Positions 1 to 10,741 of a stretch of 64,000 nucleotides of DNA are shown one piece after another. Position numbers and translations under genes: made by a program. Origin of the DNA: Paracoccaceae bacterium (lineage in GTDB: Bacteria; Pseudomonadota; Alphaproteobacteria; Rhodobacterales; Rhodobacteraceae). Each line of letters begins with the position of its first letter. The first letter of the stretch is position 1. The stretch spans positions 1 to 64,000 of the forward strand of contig JALSJM010000013.1 in the NCBI GenBank assembly GCA_026989355.1, read 5' to 3'. Under the pieces are notes generated by a model. That model was not told where the DNA came from. It saw nothing but the letters and a program-made list of their open reading frames with translations, and did no database searches.

Positions 1-973
1 CCACGGGCCGTCCGATACGGCGCAGGATCAGGTGGTAGAAGGGCGTGTAGGGCAGCATCACCCCCAGCCGGTCGAGCCCCGGGGCGACGGCCTCGGGCAG
101 GGCGCCCGGTTTCGCCTTCAGCAGCACGATGGGCGCCTGCGGGCTGCTCAGCGCCTCGGCCTCGGCGTCGGAAAGCTCGCAATAGCTTCGCACCACCTCC
201 AGGTCGCGGGCCATGAGCGCAAAGGGCCTGGTCGGGCGGCGCTTGCGCCGGCGCAGTTCGGCCACCGCCTCTGCATTGGTGGCATCGCAGGCCAGGTGCA
301 CCCCGCCCAGCCCGCGGATCGCCACGATATGGCCGTTCAGGATCATGCCGCCGGTGGCGTCCACCTCGTCGAGCATCGAAAAGGCTTCCGGATCGACCGC
401 ACCGCGGCCCAGTTTCTCGATCCAGATCTTCGGCCCGCAGCGCCCGCAGGCCACCGGCTGGGCGTGAAAACGGCGATCTTCTGGGTTGGTGTATTCTGCC
501 TCGCAGATTTCGCACAGATCGAACGGTGCCATGGTGGTGCTGGCCCGGTCGTAAGGGGCGGCGGTGACGATGGAAAACCGCGGCCCGCAGTTGGTGCAGT
601 TGGTGAAGGGGTAGCGGTAGCGGTGTTCGAAGGGGTTGCTGATCTCGGCCAGGCAATCGGCGCAGGTGGCTGCATCCGGGGTCACCGCGCCGCGCATCTC
701 GCCACCCTGCGAAGCCGCGATGCCGAAACTGTCTGGGGCGGGGGCGTCGATCAGCTCGACATTCACGGTCTCGATCCGCGCCAGCGGCGGCAGGGCCTTC
801 TGCAGCTTTTCGGAAAACACCTCGATGCGCTCGCCCCAGATGCGGATGACCACGCCCTCGCCGGTGTTCTTCACGTCTCCCGTCAGCCCCAGTTCCCGGG
901 CCAGCCGCCAGACCGTGGGGCGGAACCCCACCCCCTGCACCTGGCCGCGCACCGTCAGCTGTGCCCCGCTCAT
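1..973 (-). CDS. hypF: Carbamoyltransferase HypF, N-terminal part (runs off the window)
   Basis: HypF makes thiocarbamate on HypE from carbamoyl phosphate, the source of the CN ligands of the NiFe site. About 324 codons are visible. An acylphosphatase domain opens the protein (GQVQGVGFRPTVWRL near residue 10). Two CxxC-x18-CxxC zinc fingers follow (CADC...CTNC, CEIC...CGRC), then the start of the YrdC-like domain (VAIRGLGGVHLACDA). The ATG at 973 overlaps the stop of the NHL gene (ATGA), so it is the last visible gene of the hydrogenase operon. The missing C-terminus is an effect of the window edge, not a deletion. Confidence 0.95.
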   Translation of the reverse strand, partial: MSGAQLTVRGQVQGVGFRPTVWRLARELGLTGDVKNTGEGVVIRIWGERIEVFSEKLQKALPPLARIETVNVELIDAPAPDSFGIAASQGGEMRGAVTPDAATCADCLAEISNPFEHRYRYPFTNCTNCGPRFSIVTAAPYDRASTTMAPFDLCEICEAEYTNPEDRRFHAQPVACGRCGPKIWIEKLGRGAVDPEAFSMLDEVDATGGMILNGHIVAIRGLGGVHLACDATNAEAVAELRRRKRRPTRPFALMARDLEVVRSYCELSDAEAEALSSPQAPIVLLKAKPGALPEAVAPGLDRLGVMLPYTPFYHLILRRIGRPV

Positions 974-2148
974 GGCGCCGCCCCCCAGATCAGGATGCGG
1001 TTGTTGCCGCTGTCGGCCACCGCCAGCGTGCTGCCCCGCGCCGACAGCCCGTAGGGCCAGCACACCGTGTCGCGCCGGGCCACGCCCCAGCCGTTGTCGC
1101 CCTTGGCGGCAAAATCCGGCTGGCCGTTCAGCCGGTCGGCATGGGCAGCCATGGCGTTGTCATCCAGCCCGAGGATGCGCGAATTGGCGGTATCGCCCAC
1201 CACCAGGCGGCGGCCGAGAACCGCCAGCGCATAGGGCATGTTCACCGCCTGCGATGTCGGGTAGTAGGCGCCCAGGTTGGCATCGCAGCCCGCCATGTCG
1301 GTCTGGCCGAACAGGGCGTCGGCCGCAGCGCCGTTTTCGCGCGGCATTTCATGCCACAGCATCACCCGGTTGTTGCCGGCATCGGCCACCGCCAGCCCGC
1401 CGCGCCAGCCCACCGCCATATGCGGCCAGCGCATGGTGAAATCGCCGACCGGCCCTCCGGCGTTCTCGTCGCGGCAGTCGAAACCGCGCTGGCCCAGCAC
1501 CAGATCGGCGCCCTGGCCGCTTTCCCGCACATCGTCGAAGACCAGCACCCGCCGGTTGCCGCTGTCGCAGACCACCAGCCGTTCGCCGATGGCCGACACC
1601 CCGTAGGGCCAGTGCATGGTGTCGGCGCGCGGCGCATCGCGCCCGCGGTTGGCCAGCCCGCCGCCCATGTCGGCCTGGCCCAGCACGATGTCGGCCGCAT
1701 GCTCCGGGCCGGTGGGCAGTTCGCGCCAGATCAGCACCCGGTGGTTCCAGGCATCCGCCACCGCCAGCCCGCCGCGAAAGGCGCAGATGCCGGTGGGCAC
1801 GTTCAGCGTGTTGCCGGCCACCGGCCCCCTGGCGTTGCGCCCCTCGCGGCCGAACTCCGGCTGGCCCAGCAGGATGTCGGCCGGTGTGTCGTCGGCCTCG
1901 GGCACCCGCTTCCAGCCCAGCACCCGGTGATGCCCGGTATCCGACACCCAGAGCGAGCCGTCCGGGTGCAGACACACGCCGCGCGGCCCGAACATGCGGT
2001 GCGGCTCGGGCGAGATCGACGCCACCAGCGCCCCGCCATCGCTGCCCAGGATCACCCGCGCGCCCGCGGGCTCCAGCAGCGGCCGCCCCTGCGTGACGCT
2101 GCCGGGCGCCTTGATCGGGGCGAAGGATGGCGAAAGCGATACCCTCAT
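970..2148 (-). CDS. NHL-repeat beta-propeller protein of the hydrogenase operon
   Basis: This 392-residue protein has six clear NHL-type repeats with the pattern LxVxDxGNxRVLxW, for example LWVSDTGHHRVLGW, LAVADAWNHRVLIW and LAVADSGNNRILIWG. They are separated by linkers with a repeated GQ-P/A-DF/M element (LGQPEFG, LGQADMG, FGQTDMA, NGQPDFA). That fits a closed six-bladed propeller used for protein binding. No signal peptide is visible, so it should be cytoplasmic. The ATG at 2148 overlaps the stop of the NifU-Rieske gene and the 3' end overlaps hypF, so it is translationally coupled on both sides. NHL proteins are known companions of group 2a and 1h hydrogenase loci, but their role is not established. 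The frame stays open upstream of 2148; that stretch is only the shadow of the preceding gene. Confidence 0.85.
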   Translation of the reverse strand: MRVSLSPSFAPIKAPGSVTQGRPLLEPAGARVILGSDGGALVASISPEPHRMFGPRGVCLHPDGSLWVSDTGHHRVLGWKRVPEADDTPADILLGQPEFGREGRNARGPVAGNTLNVPTGICAFRGGLAVADAWNHRVLIWRELPTGPEHAADIVLGQADMGGGLANRGRDAPRADTMHWPYGVSAIGERLVVCDSGNRRVLVFDDVRESGQGADLVLGQRGFDCRDENAGGPVGDFTMRWPHMAVGWRGGLAVADAGNNRVMLWHEMPRENGAAADALFGQTDMAGCDANLGAYYPTSQAVNMPYALAVLGRRLVVGDTANSRILGLDDNAMAAHADRLNGQPDFAAKGDNGWGVARRDTVCWPYGLSARGSTLAVADSGNNRILIWGAAP

Positions 2149-3056
2149 TCGACGATCCTGATCTCGATATTGTGGCCCTTGACCCGCACCCCGTGGGGCT
2201 GCAGCTGCACCTCGGGCGCGGTCAGGCATTCGCCGCTTTCCAGCGCGTAGCGGAAGCCGTGATAGGGGCAGGTGATGATCGCATCCGCGATCTCGCCGCC
2301 GGTCAGCTCCAGCCCCATGTGGGCGCAGGCGTTCCTGAAGGCGCTGATCCGGTCGCCGAAGCGCGACAGGATCACCGAGTGCCCGTCCACCTCGACAAAG
2401 CGGGTTTCGCCATCCTGGAGATCGGCAAGCGTCGCCACCCGGCGCCATTCGTCGTCCTTGTAGTTGGCAAAGGGCGAGGTGAAGCTTACCGTCTCCGCTC
2501 CGCCGCCGCCCAGGCCCCTGGCCTGCCTGATTTTCGTGATTTCCGGCACATGCTCCTGGATCGCCTTCTTGACCCCGGCGTAAAAGGTCAGCTGCGAGGC
2601 CGGGCAGCCGTCGCAGGCGCCCAGAAAGCGGATCTCGGCGCTGTCGCCCGTAACCGAGACCACCTCGGCGTCGCCGCCGTGGCTGGCCAGCATCGGGCGC
2701 ACGGTTTCCAGCGCCGCCTCGACGCGCTCGAACAGCGATGGCTTGAGGATGCCGTGGCGGCGCAGCACCGCGTAGACCACCTCGTCGGCGGCGGCTTCGC
2801 GCAGGGCAGGGCCGAAGCCGGGCACCTCGCGCAAGTGGCGGATCAGCCGGCGGAAAGCCTCGGCGTTGAGCGCATCCACCGCCGCCACCAGCGCCTGCGC
2901 GCCGCTGCGGGCGGCCTCGTCCCACTGCTCGGGCAGCGCTTCGAGCGCCTTCAGATCGCCGAGCAGGCGGTCTAGATCCGGCGCGTCCTCGGCCGCCGCC
3001 CCTGCGGTTGCGGCATCGGGCGCTTCGGCGCGCTTGGCTGATCCTCCATCGGCCAT
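2145..3056 (-). CDS. NifU C-domain fused to a Rieske-type ferredoxin domain
   Basis: This 303-residue protein contains two Fe-S modules. Residues about 105-175 match the NifU C-terminal scaffold domain, with the CxxC pair C148/C151 in FLGACDGCPASQ. Residues about 195-300 match a Rieske [2Fe-2S] ferredoxin, with C244-A-H246 and C263-P-Y-H266. The first 100 residues are helical and unassigned. No signal peptide or membrane anchor is visible, so it should be cytoplasmic. A Rieske protein (HucE/HhyE) accompanies mycobacterial group 2a/1h hydrogenases and is thought to carry electrons away from the small subunit. The same role is likely here, with the NifU part possibly supplying or binding a second cluster. 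The start lies 4 nt after the stop of the preceding small gene. Confidence 0.88.
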   Translation of the reverse strand: MADGGSAKRAEAPDAATAGAAAEDAPDLDRLLGDLKALEALPEQWDEAARSGAQALVAAVDALNAEAFRRLIRHLREVPGFGPALREAAADEVVYAVLRRHGILKPSLFERVEAALETVRPMLASHGGDAEVVSVTGDSAEIRFLGACDGCPASQLTFYAGVKKAIQEHVPEITKIRQARGLGGGGAETVSFTSPFANYKDDEWRRVATLADLQDGETRFVEVDGHSVILSRFGDRISAFRNACAHMGLELTGGEIADAIITCPYHGFRYALESGECLTAPEVQLQPHGVRVKGHNIEIRIVE

Positions 3057-3060
3057 GGTC

Positions 3061-3282
3061 TCAGGCGTATTTCAGGTCTTTGAACAGGATCGGCTGGATG
3101 AACCCGGCCACCGCGCCGGCGGCGATCGCGCCCAGCCAGAGCGTCGTCAGCTTGCCGACGACGATCCCGGCCACGAGCCCGATGAACACCCCGAGGATCA
3201 TCTGGCGGATGACTTTCTTGTTTTCTTTGAAAAGCTTGCCCGCAAAGAAGAGTTTTGCGGAATTCATTGCCATGCCCAGCAT
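3061..3282 (-). CDS. Small membrane protein of the hydrogenase operon (73 aa)
   Basis: The family is not recognised. The basic N-terminus (KLFKENKKVIRQ) is followed by two hydrophobic segments, about residues 28-45 and 48-66, giving a two-helix hairpin. A good AGGAGG stands 5-6 nt before the ATG at 3282, which settles the start. It sits between the other small membrane protein and the NifU-Rieske gene, inside the hydrogenase operon. A membrane anchor for the otherwise soluble hydrogenase module is the obvious guess, but nothing in the sequence proves it. Confidence 0.7.
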   Translation of the reverse strand: MLGMAMNSAKLFFAGKLFKENKKVIRQMILGVFIGLVAGIVVGKLTTLWLGAIAAGAVAGFIQPILFKDLKYA

Positions 3283-3291
3283 GTGTTCCTC

Positions 3292-3522
3292 CTATGCAGT
3301 GCCGATACCGGCAAGGATGATGGTAGTGATCACGGCCGCCGCGCCACCGGCCAGCAGGCCGTAGAGCGCCCCCATGTAGGCGGCCAGTTCACCGCCCAGC
3401 GCTTCCTTTCCGATACGCAGCCCCGAAGCCGCGCCCGCGACCAGCGCCGCGAGGATGCCTCCAGTCAATGCAAGGATGATCGTCATGTATGTTTCCCCGT
3501 TCTGTTGGTGCCTGTTGTTCAT
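3292..3522 (-). CDS. Small glycine/alanine-rich membrane protein (76 or 64 aa)
   Basis: The protein has two hydrophobic, Gly/Ala-rich segments (ILALTGGILAALVAGAASG and LYGLLAGGAAAVITTIILAG), predicting a helical hairpin in the membrane. Two starts are possible. The ATG at 3522 overlaps the TPR stop codon (ATGA). The ATG at 3486 has GGGGA upstream and begins right at the first helix (MTIILAL); the 12 residues between are polar. The family is not recognised. Like the next gene it may anchor or scaffold the hydrogenase complex. Confidence 0.65.
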   Translation of the reverse strand: MNNRHQQNGETYMTIILALTGGILAALVAGAASGLRIGKEALGGELAAYMGALYGLLAGGAAAVITTIILAGIGTA

Positions 3523-4520
3523 TGCAGCCCGCTGCGTTCCAGGACGCTGGACGGGCCGAGCGCCTCGCGCAGTTCGCGGATCGCCTCCTCCACGGCTTCG
3601 GCCTTGTCCGTCACCTGCCGTTCACGAAAGATCTGGCGGGCCTCCTCCAGCAGCGCGATCGCCTTTTGCAGGTTGTCGCGGTTGCCGGCCTCGGGATTTT
3701 CCGGGTCGTCGGGCAGGTTGGCCAGGCAGTTGGCCTTGTTGGCGATGGTGTTGGCATATTCCTCGGGCATGTCATGCAGGGTGCGCACCTTCAGCGCCTC
3801 GTCATAGGCTTCCAGCGCGCGAAAGCCGTTTTCGATGCGGTGCGACGAGGAAACATACTGCAGCGCGTTGCCCAGGTTGTTTTGCAGCATCGCGTATTCC
3901 ACCGGGTGATCGACGATGTTGATCACGCTCAGCGCCTCCTGGAAGGACTGAACCGCCAGCGCCTCGCGCAGCTTGCCGGTCTGATCGGTGAAGGGGATCG
4001 ACAGGAAGGCTGTGGCGAGGTTGCTTTGCAGAATGGCGAATTCCTGCGGGTAGTTTTTCTTGTCGAAGGTGCGCAGGGCGCGCTGATAGGCGCTGATCGC
4101 CTTCTGGATCGGCATCAGCCCCAGCCCGGCCAGGCTCTGACAGATCAGGCCGAGGTTCATTTCGGCTTCGGCGATCTCGGCATCCGTGCCCTCGGCGGTG
4201 AGCGTCGCCAGCGCGGTCTCGATTTCCTCGCGGGCCTGTTTCAGGGGGGCGGCATCGTCTCCCGGCATGGTCATCAGCGCCGTGGCCATACGGGCCCGGA
4301 TGCGGGCCACCCCCAGGGCGTTTCCTTCCGGGGCCAGCGCGATGGCGCGGCGGTAGAGATCGACGGCGGCGCGCAGATCGTCGGGGCGCTCGGGCTTCTG
4401 CTGCAGGCCCATGGCGATTTCCATCAGCATCTCGGCCTTTTCGGCCGCGTCGCCGGCTTCGCCCTCGACCGCCCTGAGGGCCGCCTGAACCTGCTGATCT
4501 GCCCGGCTGCTGATGGTCAC
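3519..4520 (-). CDS. TPR-repeat protein of the hydrogenase operon
   Basis: This 333-residue soluble protein is built of helical repeats typical of tetratricopeptide domains, for example AVDLYRRAIALAPEGNALG, AISAYQRALRTFDKKNYPQ, NNLGNALQYV and ALEAYDEALKV. The start is a GTG at 4520 preceded by AGGGGG. A gap of 79 nt with no gene separates it from the unknown gene upstream. TPR proteins recur in group 2a/1h hydrogenase loci, where a scaffold or assembly role is assumed. No catalytic motif is visible. Confidence 0.8.
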   Translation of the reverse strand: MTISSRADQQVQAALRAVEGEAGDAAEKAEMLMEIAMGLQQKPERPDDLRAAVDLYRRAIALAPEGNALGVARIRARMATALMTMPGDDAAPLKQAREEIETALATLTAEGTDAEIAEAEMNLGLICQSLAGLGLMPIQKAISAYQRALRTFDKKNYPQEFAILQSNLATAFLSIPFTDQTGKLREALAVQSFQEALSVINIVDHPVEYAMLQNNLGNALQYVSSSHRIENGFRALEAYDEALKVRTLHDMPEEYANTIANKANCLANLPDDPENPEAGNRDNLQKAIALLEEARQIFRERQVTDKAEAVEEAIRELREALGPSSVLERSGLQ

Positions 4521-4599: not shown

Positions 4600-4935
4600 T
4601 CAACTTTCTTGTTGTTTTGTAAACTTTACTTGCAGCGCCGCGGGCAGGTCGGCGCAGAGCGCCCCGGCCTGGCTGTCCCACCGCGCGGCAAGGTTTTCTG
4701 CTTCCAGGTCAACCAGTTCCATGTCCTGAAACACGTCGTGCGCCTGTGCGACGCGGTCGCCTGCGGCGTTGCGGATCTTCAGCAGACAGCCGCCGGCGGT
4801 GGCCTGGTGCACCGGCAGGATCATCAGCCGGCCGTCGCGGATCAGCACTACCACCGCGTCGATGCCGCGAAAGTATTTGTCCACCAGCGCCGCCGGCAGA
4901 TAGACCGCACCGGCGCGCACCGAGATGCCGCTCAC
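4600..4935 (-). CDS. Unknown protein in the hydrogenase operon (111 aa)
   Basis: The family is not recognised. The GTG at 4935 overlaps the protease stop (GTGA) and is preferred because the neighbouring junctions overlap in the same way; an ATG at 4959 would add eight residues. The visible features are an SVRAGAVYLPAALVDKYF opening, a hydrophobic beta-rich core (AVVVLIRDGRLMILPV) and a C-terminal charged tail. There is no signal peptide. The two cysteines do not form a recognisable metal site. Position suggests an assembly or accessory role, but no function can be read from the sequence. Confidence 0.6.
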   Translation of the reverse strand: MSGISVRAGAVYLPAALVDKYFRGIDAVVVLIRDGRLMILPVHQATAGGCLLKIRNAAGDRVAQAHDVFQDMELVDLEAENLAARWDSQAGALCADLPAALQVKFTKQQES

Positions 4936-5438
4936 CGCGCCGCCTCCCCGCTCAGCCATTCGCCGGCCATCTCGCGGATGCGCGCGGCGACCGAGCGCGC
5001 GGCGGCCTCCACCGGCGGGCTCAGCGACAGGCCCAGCTCGAGGCTTTCGGCCTCGATCAGCAGCACCGAGACATGCGCCGGAAAATCGTCGCCATAGATC
5101 CGCCGCCCGGCGTAAAGCGCGTTGTCCCAGCGGAAATCATGCAGGTTCAGGCTGGGGGCGGGCGGGTTTTCAAGCACCGCGCCGGGCACCTCGTGGATGG
5201 CGCCGGGGCTGCCCTCGGGGATGCGGGCATCGACGATCACCAGGTGGGTGGCGCCGCGCGCCCGGTAGAGCACTGCCATGCCGTCGGTGCCGGCATCGAA
5301 CAGCCGCACCCCGGCGGGCAGGGGGGGATCGCGCAACAGCGAAATCACGTGCGGGCCCACCCCGTCGTCGGAGCGGTTCGCATTGCCGCAGCCGATCACC
5401 ACGATATCCGCGCCCCGGATGCCGGCGGGCGCGTTCAT
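4932..5438 (-). CDS. Hydrogenase maturation endopeptidase (HupD/HyaD/HupW type)
   Basis: This family removes the C-terminal tail of the large subunit once nickel is in place. The 168-residue protein carries the signature GCGNANRSDDGVGPHV near the N-terminus and DAGTDGMAVLY further on, matching the nickel-sensing acidic residues of the family. The ATG at 5438 overlaps the stop of the preceding gene (ATATGA) and is preferred over the in-frame GTG at 5447. The substrate is presumably HupL of this operon, which has 16 residues after its last metal-binding histidine. Confidence 0.93.
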   Translation of the reverse strand: MNAPAGIRGADIVVIGCGNANRSDDGVGPHVISLLRDPPLPAGVRLFDAGTDGMAVLYRARGATHLVIVDARIPEGSPGAIHEVPGAVLENPPAPSLNLHDFRWDNALYAGRRIYGDDFPAHVSVLLIEAESLELGLSLSPPVEAAARSVAARIREMAGEWLSGEAAR

Positions 5439-5746
5439 ATGCGCCACAGCCGGCAGGACCAGTCGGGTTCCACCGGCAGCATCAGTTCCGGCAGTTCGCA
5501 GAACCGGGCGTGCACCTTGTAATACATGCAGGTTTCGCAGGGCTGCTCGATGCCGTCCGCCTCGATCACGTGATCGGTGAAGCCGGCGATCACCAGCTTC
5601 TTCTCCAGGTTGTCGCCGGCCTCGCTCTGCAGCCTGGCGACGACCTCGTTCACCTGTTCGCTGGTCTCGGCGCGGGGCCAGACCTCGGTTTTCAGCCCGG
5701 ATTTCAGCTTTTCCGCAATTTCGCGGCGCAGCGCGTCGTCATCCAT
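5435..5746 (-). CDS. Four-cysteine HiPIP-like small protein, paralogue B
   Basis: This 103-residue protein ends in CETCMYYKVHARFC, then 14 residues, then CRLWRI. The four cysteines follow C-x2-C-x9-C-x14-C with a Trp three residues after the last. That resembles the HiPIP fold signature (CxxC...C...WCxxW) but with a shorter middle loop. Alternatives are a Zn site or another [4Fe-4S] or [2Fe-2S] site. It is homologous to the next gene upstream (shared GLKTEV, KLxIxG and DWxCRLWRI). No export signal is visible, whereas classical HiPIPs are periplasmic. The family is not recognised by name. Confidence 0.75.
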   Translation of the reverse strand: MDDDALRREIAEKLKSGLKTEVWPRAETSEQVNEVVARLQSEAGDNLEKKLVIAGFTDHVIEADGIEQPCETCMYYKVHARFCELPELMLPVEPDWSCRLWRI

Positions 5747-5755
5747 GTCGTCCCC

Positions 5756-6142
5756 TTAGATCCTCCAGAGCCGGCACCACCAGTCGGGTTTTGCCGGCAG
5801 GTCCAGTTCCGGCAGGTCGCACCAGCGCTTGTGCACCAGGTAATACATGCATTCCTGACAGCGCATCTGCTCTTCGCCGTAAGGTTCCAGAAGCCAGCCC
5901 GAAATGATCAGTTTCTCGCGCAGCTGGTCGGCAGAGAGCGGCCGAAGCTCGTCCAGCAGCCGCCCGAATTCGCGGTCGGTTTCCGGGAGGGGCTCGACCT
6001 CGGTTTTCAGGCCGTCGGCGAACATGTCCTCGATCATCCGGATCAGAATGTCATAGCTGGCCTCTGCCGGGGTCAGGCCGTATCTATCCAGATAGGCCTG
6101 CCGCTGCGCCTCGCTCAGGGGTTCTTTCCGCTTGTCAGCCAT
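5756..6142 (-). CDS. Four-cysteine HiPIP-like small protein, paralogue A
   Basis: This 128-residue protein directly follows hupL. Its C-terminus reads CQECMYYLVHKRWC, 14 residues, CRLWRI, the same C-x2-C-x9-C-x14-C-x2-W spacing as paralogue B. The body shares GLKTEV and KLIISGW with B, and A has about 35 extra N-terminal residues. GGGAGG lies 7-8 nt before the ATG at 6142. Its place next to the structural genes and its conserved cysteines and aromatics suggest a cytoplasmic electron carrier or docking subunit for the hydrogenase. Metal content cannot be read from the sequence. Confidence 0.78.
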   Translation of the reverse strand: MADKRKEPLSEAQRQAYLDRYGLTPAEASYDILIRMIEDMFADGLKTEVEPLPETDREFGRLLDELRPLSADQLREKLIISGWLLEPYGEEQMRCQECMYYLVHKRWCDLPELDLPAKPDWWCRLWRI

Positions 6143-6216: not shown

Positions 6217-7815
6217 TCAGGCCGTGCGGAAGCGGGCCAGTTCTGTGCCGGTTTTCGCGTCATGTGCATGCACCGTGCACACCAGGCAGCTGTCGTAGGA
6301 GCGGCAGACATGGCCCACCTCGACCGGATCGGCGCTGTTCCTGATCGGGGTGCCGATCAGTGCTTCCTCAATCGGGCCGCGGGCACCGTCCGAGGTGCGC
6401 GGGCCGACGTTCCAGGTGGTTGGCGCGATGATCTGGTAGTTGGCGATCTTGCCGTCCCTGACGTCGATCCAGTGGCACAGCGCGCCGCGGATCGCCTCGG
6501 TGGCGCCCCAGCCCCGGCCGTCCTTTTCGGTGGGCTTGATATACCACTCGTCGTTCAGCCTGAACTCGCGCAGGATGCGCTCGGCCTCGCGGTAGAGGAT
6601 GCACAGTTCGTGCATCCGCGCGAAGTGGCGCAGCATGGTCGAGGCGCCGCCCATCTTGCGATACATGTCCAGCACCAGCCCGTCGGAATGCTGGAAGTCC
6701 TGGCCCATGCCGTTGCCGGCGATCAGCCGGCGCGCAAGCGGGCCGGCCTCCAGGCGGCCGCTTTCCGCATGCGCCACCGCCGTGGCCCAGGAATACTTGC
6801 CCGCCGGGTCGATGGCATTCCTGGCCACCGGATTGGTCACCCGGTCGAACGGGTGCACGGCGCCGGCTTCGTCATACCAGGCGTGTTGCGTGTCCTCGCG
6901 CACGAAGGACTGGTCCATCGGCCCGAAGGTATCGGTGGCACCGTCGTAGATGCCCGATTTCATGATCACCGCATCGGCGCGCCCCTCGATGGTCGGGTTC
7001 TGGTAGCGGTCCTCGTGCGGCAGGTAGCCCCAGGTCACGAAACGTCCGTGGCCCTTGCCGTAATTGTCCAGCCCGATGTCCTTGGACATGCGCCAGAACA
7101 TGCCCAGGTCGGAATTGGCGTGTTCGGGCTTTTCGTCGAGCCAGGCTTCGAAATCCTCCAGCGTCTGGATCTCCTCGTAGCGTTCCATCGAACAGCCCAG
7201 CCACAGCGGCTCGATCCAGTTCTGGCGGAAATGTTCGAGGATCGACCAGGCGCGGGTCACATCGGTGAGCGTGGGCGAGCACATCACGCCGCCGGGCACC
7301 ATGAAGGAGGAATGCGGCCACTGCCCGCCGAGCAGGGCATAGATTTCCACCGGCCGGCCGGAAATCGTCACCCCGGCCTCGTAGGAAGTGCCGGTGAACG
7401 GCGCATAGCGCTTGACCGCTTCCTCGTAGAAGGGGCTCGCGGCGTAGTTCTCGTTGGTGTAGTCGATCATGAACAGGCCGTAGTGGTGGCGCGGCAGCGA
7501 CTGCAGTGATTCCACCACCTGCCCGAGATTGCGGGCGAGAATCGCGTTGCGCGGCACCGTGGTGCCCCAGGCGGTATCCAGCGCCCAGGCGGCGCAGGTC
7601 AGGTGCGAGGCACCGCAGATGCCGCAGGCGCGCGGCGTCACCACCAGGCCGGCCTGCGGATCTTTGTCCTTCAGGATCACCTCGAAGCCGCGGAACATCT
7701 CCGCATGCGTCCAGGCGTTGGTGACTACGCCGTTTTCGATCTCGACACGCACGTCCAGGTCGCCTTCGACGCGCCCCACCGGTGAAATGTCGAGGGTTTC
7801 TACTGCTGCAGACAT
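6217..7815 (-). CDS. hupL: [NiFe] uptake hydrogenase large subunit (group 2a-like)
   Basis: This subunit holds the NiFe(CN)2CO centre that splits H2. The 532-residue protein contains the L1 motif RACGICGASH (C64, C67, H71) and the L2 motif SYDSCLVCTVH (C510, C513, H516). The usual DPC of L2 is DSC here. Sixteen residues follow H516 and should be cut off by the maturation protease in this operon. Cyanobacterial HupL is about 531 residues, so length supports group 2a; group 1h is the main alternative. AGGAG precedes the ATG at 7815. It lies 24 nt after hupS. Confidence 0.95.
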   Translation of the reverse strand: MSAAVETLDISPVGRVEGDLDVRVEIENGVVTNAWTHAEMFRGFEVILKDKDPQAGLVVTPRACGICGASHLTCAAWALDTAWGTTVPRNAILARNLGQVVESLQSLPRHHYGLFMIDYTNENYAASPFYEEAVKRYAPFTGTSYEAGVTISGRPVEIYALLGGQWPHSSFMVPGGVMCSPTLTDVTRAWSILEHFRQNWIEPLWLGCSMERYEEIQTLEDFEAWLDEKPEHANSDLGMFWRMSKDIGLDNYGKGHGRFVTWGYLPHEDRYQNPTIEGRADAVIMKSGIYDGATDTFGPMDQSFVREDTQHAWYDEAGAVHPFDRVTNPVARNAIDPAGKYSWATAVAHAESGRLEAGPLARRLIAGNGMGQDFQHSDGLVLDMYRKMGGASTMLRHFARMHELCILYREAERILREFRLNDEWYIKPTEKDGRGWGATEAIRGALCHWIDVRDGKIANYQIIAPTTWNVGPRTSDGARGPIEEALIGTPIRNSADPVEVGHVCRSYDSCLVCTVHAHDAKTGTELARFRTA

Positions 7816-7839: not shown

Positions 7840-8802
7840 TCAGACGACGAAAATGTCTTCTTCGGCCCAGGCCGGGGCGGCGCCCTTGGCGGCGGCGGTA
7901 AGCTTGATGTAACCCTTCTTGTCCACGCCTTCGGGCATGTCCTTGGGCACGCCCATCATGGTCTGGGTCTTGAACACCGTTCCCGGCGCCAGATCGTAGA
8001 AGGGGAATTCCGGCTCGGTGCAGCCGAGGCAGGGCATTCCGGCGCGTGTCTTGGAGGAATGGCGGTTCCACAGGATCCGGTTGCAGGGGCTGTGGGTCAT
8101 CGGCCCGCGGCAGCCCAGGTCATAGAACAGGCAGCCCTTGCGCTGGCCGAAGGCCGTGGTTGACACCTTGTAGGCAAAGTGCATGTTGCGCGTGCAGCCG
8201 GTCTGGGTGAACGAGGAAAAGAAGGTTCTGGGGCGCTGGAATTCGTCCAGCGTCAGGTCGCCGGCACGGCCCGTGGCCACGGCGACCAGGATCTGCGTCA
8301 CCCAGTCGGGATGTGCGGGGCAGCCGGGAATGTTGATCACCGGCAGGCCGGATTTCGCGGTAAAGCCGGCGCCCAGCGCGCCGCCCTTTTCGCGCTTGAG
8401 GAACTGCAGCCCTTCGCTGTCGGACGGGTTCGGCGCTGTCGCCGGAATGCCGCCCCAGGTGGCGCAGTCGCCGATTGCGACCACGAAATCGGCTGCGGCC
8501 GACAGTTCCTTCACCCAGTCCTTCATCGGCCGGCCGCAGAAGCGGTTCCACTCGCCGGTGCCGTTGGGGGCATTGATCACTGTGCCTTCGAACACGAAGA
8601 TGTCGAGCTTGATTTCACCGGAGATGCATTTTTCGACGATGGCCTTCACCTCGTCGCCCAACTCCAGCCCGAGCGAGGGTTGCCACAGAACGTTGATGCC
8701 GAAATCCGTGACCAGGTCACAGGCGCTGGGTTCCTCGGCGTTCAGGAAGGACATGGTGTTGCCCGAGCAAGCCCCCCCCTGCAGCCACAATAGATTTGCC
8801 AT
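7840..8802 (-). CDS. hupS: [NiFe] uptake hydrogenase small subunit (group 2a-like)
   Basis: This subunit carries the Fe-S chain taking electrons from the NiFe centre. It has 320 residues, the length of cyanobacterial HupS, and opens with LLWLQGGACSGNTMSFLNAEEP. There is no twin-arginine signal, so the enzyme stays in the cytoplasm. The proximal-cluster motif is C12-S-G-N15 instead of CxxC, with C113 and C161 as the other ligands. Distal and medial ligands lie in TGC203, GC224/GC231, SPC240 and PC258-LGC261. The ATG at 8802 is chosen because GGGAGGA lies 7 nt upstream; the in-frame ATG at 8808 touches that Shine-Dalgarno sequence. Confidence 0.95.
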   Translation of the reverse strand: MANLLWLQGGACSGNTMSFLNAEEPSACDLVTDFGINVLWQPSLGLELGDEVKAIVEKCISGEIKLDIFVFEGTVINAPNGTGEWNRFCGRPMKDWVKELSAAADFVVAIGDCATWGGIPATAPNPSDSEGLQFLKREKGGALGAGFTAKSGLPVINIPGCPAHPDWVTQILVAVATGRAGDLTLDEFQRPRTFFSSFTQTGCTRNMHFAYKVSTTAFGQRKGCLFYDLGCRGPMTHSPCNRILWNRHSSKTRAGMPCLGCTEPEFPFYDLAPGTVFKTQTMMGVPKDMPEGVDKKGYIKLTAAAKGAAPAWAEEDIFVV

Positions 8803-9057: not shown

Positions 9058-9294
9058 CTAGCCGCGACGGCCGCAAACCGGGCATTCGCATTCAAGGAAA
9101 TAGGAATACCAGATGCCCTTGCAGTTGGCACACCAATGTCCCTTGGCGCCGCGCCCGGACCTGTCCGCTTTTGCCGATAGCGCGGTCAATCCCAGGTTGC
9201 GCGCGGGGTTTTTCGTCCTGGCCAGGCCCGAGCGCGAGAACGGAAACGGCACCACCTTTTCGCTGCCCTTGCCCCTGTCGCCCCGCTCAGGCAT
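9058..9294 (-). CDS. Small cysteine-rich Zn-ribbon-like protein (78 aa)
   Basis: The family is not recognised. The N-terminal half is basic and low complexity. The C-terminal 26 residues contain HWCANCKGIWYSYF followed by CECPVCG, that is CxxC-x10-C-x-CxxC, a likely zinc ribbon or rubredoxin-like metal site. The ATG at 9294 overlaps the 3' end of the regulator gene by 8 nt; an ATG at 9303 is also possible. Its place between the regulator and the hydrogenase promoter suggests a regulatory or assembly role, but none is proven. Confidence 0.6.
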   Translation of the reverse strand: MPERGDRGKGSEKVVPFPFSRSGLARTKNPARNLGLTALSAKADRSGRGAKGHWCANCKGIWYSYFLECECPVCGRRG

Positions 9295-10741
9295 GGCTGG
9301 CATCCCGGCGCAGCCCGTAGCGCCTGATCTTGTTGGCCAGGCCAACCCGCGACAGGCCCAGTTTCTCGGCTACCCGGCTCTGGTTCCAGTGGTGTTCGGC
9401 CAGTTCCCGGCTCAGCAGCATCTTTTCCAGGCTTTCGACCTTTTCCTTCAGCGTGGCCCCTTCCGGCATCCAGCCCGCCTGCCGGTCTTCGGGGACCGTC
9501 ACCCGCCGGATCTTGTCCGACAGGTGCCGCAGGGCGATATAGCCGCCCTGTTCGGCCACCGCCACCATGCGCTGCACCTCGGTTTCCAGTTCGCGCACGT
9601 TGCCGGAGAAGGGGTAGCTCTCAAGTTGTTTCAACACCTCCGAGGTCACGCCCAGCACCCGGCGCCCGACCACGCCGGCGTATTTTTCCACGAAGAACTG
9701 GGTCAGCACCGGAATGTCCTCGGGCCGTTCGCGCAGGGGCGGGATTTCCAGCATGAACCCGCGTAGCCGGTAATACAGATCGCGGCGGAAGCGCCCTTGC
9801 TCGACCAGCTTTTCCAGGGACTTGTTGGAGGCGGAGATGATGCGCACATCGCTCGACAGCACCTTGTCCGATCCCAGCGGCTTGACCTCTCCCTCCTGCA
9901 GGAACCGCAGCAGGGCGATCTGGAACTGCGGCGAGATTTCCGACACCTCGTCCAGGAACACCGTGCCTTTGTCGGCAGCTCGAAACAGCCCCAGCCGGTC
10001 GGAAATGGCGCCGGGAAAGCCGCCACGCACATGGCCGAACAGTTCCGAATGCAGCGCGTCATCGGCCACGCCACCGCAGTTCTGGCTGTGCATCGGCGAA
10101 TTCATCCGGGCGGAATTGAAGTGGATCGCGCGCGCCAGCAGCTCCTTGCCGGTGCCGGTTTCCCCCTGGATCAGGATCGGCATGTTGGTGCGCGCGGCGA
10201 TCTTCGCCTCTTCCACCAGTTCGGCCATTTTCGGGCTGGCATAGACCAGGCGTTCGAACTGCGAAATGCCGCCGGCGACGGAGCCGCCTGGCTCGCGCTC
10301 GAAGATCTTGTCATCCAGCGACAGTTTCAGCTCACGGCTCAGGATACGGTGCCGGCGCGCCAGCTCGGTATGTTCCAGCGCTCGTTTCACCACGATCTTG
10401 ACCAGTTTCGCATCGAACGGCTTGACCAGATACATGAAAGACGCGGTGCGCTCGAACATGGCGATGCCTTCGTCCATTGCGTCACGCTCGAATGCGATGA
10501 TCCGGGCGCAAGAGGCATGGGTCAGCCGCGAGCGGATCAGCGCATTGTCCTTTTCCGAAACATTGGCGGCCAGATCGCAGAGGATCAGGTCAACATCCAC
10601 TTCGTTCAGCCGGCGCAGGGCGCTCTTGTCATCCTCGCAGAAGATTATCCTGAATCCCTCGACTTCGCTCAGGGCCTGGGAAACGGTGCTGAAAACCGCC
10701 GGGTCGTTGGATTTTACAAGAATCGTCTGAATGTTGCGCAT
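9287..10741 (-). CDS. hupR: NtrC-family response regulator, HupR/HoxA type
   Basis: This 484-residue hydrogenase regulator has a receiver domain (D36/D37 acidic pocket, phosphoacceptor D56 in LILCDL, K107 in VKPFD), an AAA+ domain (Walker A GETGTGKE near 193-200, Walker B GTVFLDE) and a Fis-type HTH (RVAEKLGLSRVGLANKIRRYG). The loop that normally reads GAFTGA is GGFPGA at 240-245. GAFTGA contacts sigma-54; HupR of Rhodobacter capsulatus is known to work with sigma-70 RNA polymerase and to be active unphosphorylated, and the changed loop fits that. No partner kinase gene is in the window. HoxA would be an equally valid name. Confidence 0.88.
   Translation of the reverse strand: MRNIQTILVKSNDPAVFSTVSQALSEVEGFRIIFCEDDKSALRRLNEVDVDLILCDLAANVSEKDNALIRSRLTHASCARIIAFERDAMDEGIAMFERTASFMYLVKPFDAKLVKIVVKRALEHTELARRHRILSRELKLSLDDKIFEREPGGSVAGGISQFERLVYASPKMAELVEEAKIAARTNMPILIQGETGTGKELLARAIHFNSARMNSPMHSQNCGGVADDALHSELFGHVRGGFPGAISDRLGLFRAADKGTVFLDEVSEISPQFQIALLRFLQEGEVKPLGSDKVLSSDVRIISASNKSLEKLVEQGRFRRDLYYRLRGFMLEIPPLRERPEDIPVLTQFFVEKYAGVVGRRVLGVTSEVLKQLESYPFSGNVRELETEVQRMVAVAEQGGYIALRHLSDKIRRVTVPEDRQAGWMPEGATLKEKVESLEKMLLSRELAEHHWNQSRVAEKLGLSRVGLANKIRRYGLRRDASHA

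Follow-up and report, generated by a model that had tools for sequence, protein, structure and literature searches.

The closest solved relative of the hydrogenase considered here is the Huc enzyme of Mycobacterium smegmatis (HucS, HucL, and HucM; 7uus), in which HucM holds the complex together and links it to the membrane and which reportedly passes electrons to menaquinone inside the complex (PMC10017518). In the same organism, deletion of hucE lowered H2 oxidation, and deletion of both hucE and hhyE abolished it (PMC6883350). The electron acceptors of cyanobacterial group 2a enzymes have been called enigmatic (PMC6883350), and PMC7735108 describes a missing link. It was in the latter study that DN052_04130, encoded near hupLS of Acidithiobacillus ferrooxidans, was named a putative high-potential iron-sulfur protein (HiPIP) in 2020; this HiPIP-like neighbor, a Rieske protein, or both were proposed to form the link to ubiquinone. 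A HiPIP-like protein as partner of a group 2a hydrogenase is thus not a wholly new idea, and we found no other paper making this connection in the literature searched, which was mostly free of subscription papers. The KYG cluster of Methylocapsa aurea has been described with HucS, HucL, HucE, and HycI (PMC12319191), and the term HiPIP is absent from the main text of that paper.

The window, by which we mean the whole stretch of 64,000 nucleotides that was analyzed, carries two adjacent paralogous genes, A and B, beside a hydrogenase of this kind. We lean towards the view that their products are cytoplasmic HiPIP-fold electron-transfer partners of the proteobacterial group 2a Huc.

The hydrogenase operon and its paired genes

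A and B lie on the minus strand in an operon with the following features. Locus counts refer to the 80 loci of the relatives search described below, and the 68 loci used for the small hydrophobic proteins are those with both TPR and NifU-Rieske matches.

970..2250, minus strand, NHL-repeat protein (PF01436), homologue in 68/80 loci
2145..3056, minus strand, HucE-like protein with NifU and Rieske [2Fe-2S] domains (PF01106, PF00355), homologue in 68/80 loci
3061..3282, minus strand, small hydrophobic protein that by eye has two membrane helices, homologue in 68/68 loci
3292..3522, minus strand, second small hydrophobic protein, by eye also with two membrane helices, homologue in 67/68 loci
3519..4520, minus strand, TPR-like protein (sub-threshold TPR matches), homologues in 72/80 loci
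4600..4959, minus strand, conserved hypothetical protein of the operon, homologues in the loci
4932..5447, minus strand, hydrogenase maturation protease of the HycI type (PF01750, TIGR00072)
5435..5746, minus strand, paralogue B, 103 aa, with the domain and Cys pattern of A
5756..6142, minus strand, paralogue A, 128 aa, putative HiPIP-like domain preceded by an N-terminal extension
6217..7815, minus strand, hucL, hydrogenase large subunit
7840..8802, minus strand, hucS, hydrogenase small subunit

The large subunit has M. smegmatis Huc (7uus/7utd) as its best solved relative (603 bits, versus 211 bits for the next-best solved molecule), and the small subunit, the start of which was placed at MANLLWLQ by alignment, matches that of Huc with 528 bits. 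Given these scores, and with NifU-Rieske and NHL genes in the operon, the enzyme beside A and B is read from its sequence as a [NiFe]-hydrogenase of group 2a (Huc type), whose members scavenge atmospheric H2. The NHL-repeat protein corresponds to the 3' part of an open frame at 970-2925. The two small hydrophobic proteins, encoded between the TPR-like and NifU-Rieske genes (3061-3282 and 3292-3522), are candidates for a membrane anchor or a quinone site.

A starts 74 nt after the end of hucL, and a gap of 9 nt separates A from B, the end of which shares 13 nt with the protease ORF. The two products are 48% identical and have in common the pattern C-x2-C-x9-C-x14-C-x2-W followed by R-I (Cys95, Cys98, Cys108, Cys123, and Trp126 in A), the last six residues being CRLWRI in both. 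A preliminary description of this DNA had reported adjacent paralogues with this identical terminus, and both ORFs are confirmed on the minus strand. Like A and B, HucE is a putative iron-sulfur relay encoded in the same operon, but its NifU and Rieske domains are not those of the pair.

The position of the two genes, with hucL on one side and the maturation protease on the other, is conserved and is one that would be expected of a maturation factor. Conceivably, the pair serves in assembly or protection, for instance by holding an iron-sulfur cluster, delivering it to HucS, or shielding it from oxygen, and stands outside the electron path. The authors of PMC6883350 leave a maturation role open even for HucE. 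Moreover, HucL of huc operons lacking the pair is 54 to 56% identical, so related enzymes do without A and B. The same operons also speak against an assembly function, since their enzymes must mature without the pair, and the predicted fold of A and B resembles that of an electron carrier. We therefore consider an assembly or protection role rather unlikely, and transfer of electrons by the pair remains our preferred reading.

Two further features are found on the hucS side of the operon. An open frame at 9058-9345 (minus strand), between a sigma-54-dependent regulator and hucS, ends in a CxxC...CPxCG knuckle that looks rubredoxin-like by eye and belongs to no Pfam family; of the 74 loci with a HucS match, 61 have a homologue in the 1.5 kb that precede hucS. 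The sigma-54-dependent regulator itself adjoins the huc operon at 9287-10741 (minus strand), and the group 2 cluster of A. ferrooxidans likewise has a sigma-54 regulator, hupR, alongside (PMC2621215). With a regulator encoded next door, A and B might be thought of as redox sensors controlling expression or activity of the hydrogenase. However, Pfam and NCBIfam scans detected no DNA-binding or signaling domain in either protein, and the genes are placed inside the structural operon, which makes such a function very improbable in our view.

Distribution and the two lineages

Relatives were searched with a six-member alignment against one genome per species (84,980 species). Of the 149 relatives found, the best 80, all with proteobacterial titles, were kept; all locus counts rest on these best 80 of 149, a set that leaves out cyanobacterial huc operons. 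In 79 of the 80 loci the family is preceded by a hucL gene of the same orientation. The distance is at most 400 nt in 78 of them and 582 nt, measured to the best hucL piece, in L052; the 80th locus, L075, begins at a contig end. Likewise, the protease follows within 1 kb in all 78 loci with a protease match.

The link to this hydrogenase was also apparent in whole genomes. HucL was detected at E <= 1e-100 in 4 of 385 alphaproteobacterial genomes, 3 of 195 genomes of relatives, and 10 of 398 genomes of the phylum, the genome of the window being included in each of these three samples. Six of the 10 matches in the phylum sample are hydrogenases at 39 to 42% identity, in genomes that are all without the family. 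At a HucL identity of at least 79%, the three samples contain nine distinct genomes, and all nine have two copies. In the reverse direction, a search with the joint A+B profile, in which at most 12 candidates were scored per genome, returned the same 4 of the 385 alphaproteobacterial genomes plus two marginal matches. A two-sequence profile returned the same 3 of the 195 relatives and, in a 200-genome phylum sample, the window's own genome alone. These findings bear out, for every set examined, the earlier proposal that the pair is dedicated to a hydrogenase. The converse possibility raised in the preliminary description, a family that also occurs outside hydrogenase genomes, yielded no convincing member in the sets searched. 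The two marginal matches of the joint profile, both in genomes without HucL at E <= 1e-100, were judged to be chance and set aside: G316 (E 0.0015) contains two internal stops, and G568 (E 0.0036) overlaps another ORF, presumably one for a hydroxyacylglutathione hydrolase. That either of them is a true but weak relative is improbable. Among viral contigs, 42 pattern matches were obtained, none of which was confirmed as a family member.

Twelve plasmid records carry the family, including a plasmid of Sphingopyxis alaskensis RB2256 with two copies, SALA_RS16235 (A) and SALA_RS16240 (B), beside hucL. RefSeq labels the copies in L141 and L142 as hypothetical proteins. By gene position only, DN052_04130 of A. 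ferrooxidans would belong to A; it too is found near the hupLS genes of a group 2a hydrogenase and is adjacent to DN052_04125, a gene to which PMC7735108 assigns no function.

The 80 loci contain 153 copies of the family, of which 150 keep the strict Cys spacing and have no residue beyond the final R/K-I/V; because of this near-strict conservation of spacing and end point, the Cys pattern is not a matter of chance. Two strict-motif copies are present in 70 loci. The three nonstrict copies are the B copies of L010 and L011 and the A copy of L053, in which one Cys position is an unreadable residue. In two metagenome-derived genomes, the second cluster Cys of B is replaced by Arg (L010:8397-8705) or is unreadable (L011:6435-6743); either errors or a decaying B may account for these copies. 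L037 and L041 end shortly after A.

A occurs without B in five loci (L074, L075, L079, L083, and L087, the first of which is the Methylocapsa aurea KYG cluster), and in all five cases the genome as a whole has exactly one match. B is thus dispensable in the genomes concerned, which are those of two Methylocapsa, two Rhodocyclaceae, and Sinimarinibacterium. For the phylogeny, 131 distinct rows were analyzed by maximum likelihood on 92 columns, a number that leaves many inner forks unresolved. One branch, with support of 100/99, nevertheless separates the 61 B rows from all A rows and the single copies. From this split, we infer one old duplication, after which the A-then-B order was kept.

The tree is also a better ground for assigning separate roles to A and B than the N-terminal extension of A, which had been taken earlier as a hint at different roles or a heterodimer. 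In loci L008-L055, 43 of 47 A copies do have an extension of approximately 25 aa, but in L056-L087 the length of A is only 103 to 110 aa in 26 of 29 cases (start codons were chosen by rule for this count, and A of L053, L071, L072, and L086 was left out). Hence, the extension is a property of only part of the A lineage, and the argument built on it falls away.

Sequence features and predicted fold

HiPIPs are generally known as periplasmic proteins. In agreement with the preliminary description, no export leader was recognized in A or B when hydrophobic residues near the N terminus were counted: any 14-residue stretch contains at most 7 in A and at most 6 in B. Of 150 copies, 19 contain an RR-x-hydrophobic string; the window's B is one of these but has no hydrophobic stretch. 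Three copies have 10 to 11 hydrophobic residues of 14 near an N terminus that was chosen by rule.

Pfam and NCBIfam scans identified no family that spans the window's A or B. For the HiPIP family PF01355, neither protein reached the cutoff, and only 1 of the 84 members of the joint alignment gave a match, at an E value of 0.039, as one of 31 families at noise level. DUF2284 (PF10050) was rejected, as B scored 14.7 bits against a cutoff of 25 and 3 of the 84 members matched with a best E value of 0.027. A canonical HiPIP (PF01355) was absent from the window's own genome and present in 3 of the 101 genomes searched.

The structures of A and B were predicted with AlphaFold2. The model of A, for which 46 A rows and 38 B rows were aligned together, reached a pLDDT of 93.3 and a pTM of 0.86, and that of B, based on 55 B rows, a pLDDT of 96.6 and a pTM of 0.88. 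A Foldseek search of the PDB returned nothing significant for A, the rows being unrelated proteins with TM-scores of 0.14 to 0.22 by query length. For B, the first three rows were HiPIPs, at E values of 0.28 to 2.0 that are not significant, followed by unrelated proteins. Foldseek's candidates (45 chains for A and 64 for B) were then realigned, with the comparison restricted to them (VIA-align). For A, 9 of the 45 chains (8 entries) scored a Z of at least 2, and for B, 14 of the 64 chains (11 entries); all are HiPIPs, one of the eight entries matching A being titled PioC, which we take to be a HiPIP as well. The best matches were 3h31 for A (Z 5.8, 60 residues, 2.5 Å) and 3hip_B for B (Z 5.8, 63 residues, 2.6 Å). 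Over all HiPIP matches Z ranged from 3.7 to 5.8, and as values below 8 may reflect a mere common arrangement, they are not decisive in themselves. What carries weight in these model comparisons is that no listed non-HiPIP entry reached a Z of 2. A structure prediction with a fold search against HiPIPs had been named beforehand as a way to check the resemblance, and the predicted fold of both models resembles that of HiPIPs and is not an unrelated one.

Profile comparisons pointed in the same direction. Aligned by hhalign with 13 HiPIPs, the joint profile gave a P value of 0.0025 (probability, only 11.9%) and placed the four Cys as well as the C-terminal Trp in register, and the B profile gave a P value of 0.0041 (probability, 8.4%) over 18 columns in which the first two Cys alone were aligned. 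The real score was reached by 1 of 100 Cys-keeping column shuffles for the joint profile and by 0 of 100 for the B profile, and the same numbers were obtained with free shuffles; non-Cys residues therefore contribute to the HiPIP match. Searches of PDB sequences with A and with the B profile detected no HiPIP. Three B-profile matches below 0.01 were set aside; they contain designed helical repeats, and in their best stretches only profile positions 25-58 are matched.

Likeness to HiPIPs thus extends to the predicted fold and to the order C-x2-C...C...C, the cysteines of which are putative cluster ligands in A and B. Many of the 13 aligned HiPIPs also have a Trp three places after the last Cys, the rest having Tyr or Phe. 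In the preliminary description, the middle loop was considered shorter than in HiPIPs. A spacing of 9 is indeed short, as 12 of the 13 aligned HiPIPs have 12 to 14 residues here, but the Pfam-positive HiPIP L096 has spacings of 8 and 12. Since the second and third spacings of the 13 range from 8 to 14 and from 12 to 15, respectively, the values of 9 and 14 in the family are unusual yet not out of range. In contrast, the Gly-Trp-Cys sequence that is invariant in the 13 HiPIPs is not conserved in A and B, which have Trp at the place of Gly; at this position, two residues ahead of the last Cys, Trp is itself invariant in the joint A+B and B alignments. A and B further differ from HiPIPs in lacking a leader and a significant sequence match, in having extra N-terminal helices, and in being encoded beside one kind of hydrogenase, usually as a pair. 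The resemblance noted earlier therefore holds for the predicted fold and the register of the four cysteines and does not extend to PF01355 membership by sequence. The most fitting label for A and B is HiPIP-like, with regard to predicted fold; because they lack Gly-Trp-Cys and a leader and score below the Pfam cutoff, they are not filed as HiPIPs.

Pairless operons and a proposed role for the pair

M. smegmatis Huc shares HucS and HucL with the present enzyme but differs in having HucM. DUF1641, the HucM domain, was found in three of five pairless plasmid records (Mycobacterium, Thermus, and Sulfobacillus plasmids) versus none of 10 family-bearing genomes, two of which are A-only. The DUF1641 protein of M. 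intracellulare matches HucM (7uus_Q) at 2.9e-34 and is thus HucM by sequence; the plasmid locus in question, L088, has neither A and B nor homologues of the two small hydrophobic proteins. Homologues of the latter were absent from all five pairless huc loci, of approximately 19.6 kb each. The pairless loci L088, L089, and L090 each have an annotated NifU-family protein as well.

The distribution of DUF1641 and the match to HucM are what one would expect if A and B were structural subunits, stabilized by zinc or by a cluster that is not redox active, which replace HucM as scaffold or membrane adapter. Against this stand the contribution of non-Cys residues to the HiPIP match and two Bacteroidota records, in which a search of the plasmids found neither DUF1641 nor the pair, suggesting that a scaffold may not always be needed. 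We regard a purely structural function as improbable. The electron-transfer reading, in contrast, might be extended to a replacement in which the proteobacterial Huc swapped the HucM quinone channel for a soluble HiPIP pair and two small membrane proteins. We put this forward tentatively and with some doubt, as the Bacteroidota records are a poor fit to a simple exchange of HucM for the pair.

As partners in electron transfer, A and B would each carry one [4Fe-4S] cluster on their four cysteines in the cytoplasm, the presence and potential of which are presumed. H2 would be split on HucL, and the electrons would pass via the HucS clusters to A, usually together with B, and from there to the quinone pool, perhaps assisted by HucE, with its Rieske domain, and by the two small hydrophobic proteins. 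This path and its direction, the quinone that is reduced, a complex with the hydrogenase, and any A-B dimer are likewise putative. Counting against a relay are the low hhalign probabilities, the nonsignificant Foldseek matches, the position of the genes ahead of the protease, the change from Gly to Trp, the five genomes in which B is missing, and the one B that is short of a Cys.

For group 2a hydrogenases outside the mycobacteria, A and B are named candidate genes for the hand-off of electrons to the respiratory chain. Sphingopyxis alaskensis RB2256, which takes H2 to below the atmospheric level (PMC10305171), is a cultured H2 oxidizer that has two copies beside hucL. If the proposed role is correct, it would extend the HiPIP fold to the cytoplasm, and the pair may set the proteobacterial Huc branch apart from the HucM branch. 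Should the exchange for HucM also hold, there would be a second route by which trace H2 supplies the (ubi)quinone pool with electrons, in the form of a cytoplasmic HiPIP relay of two long-separated, jointly conserved subunits.
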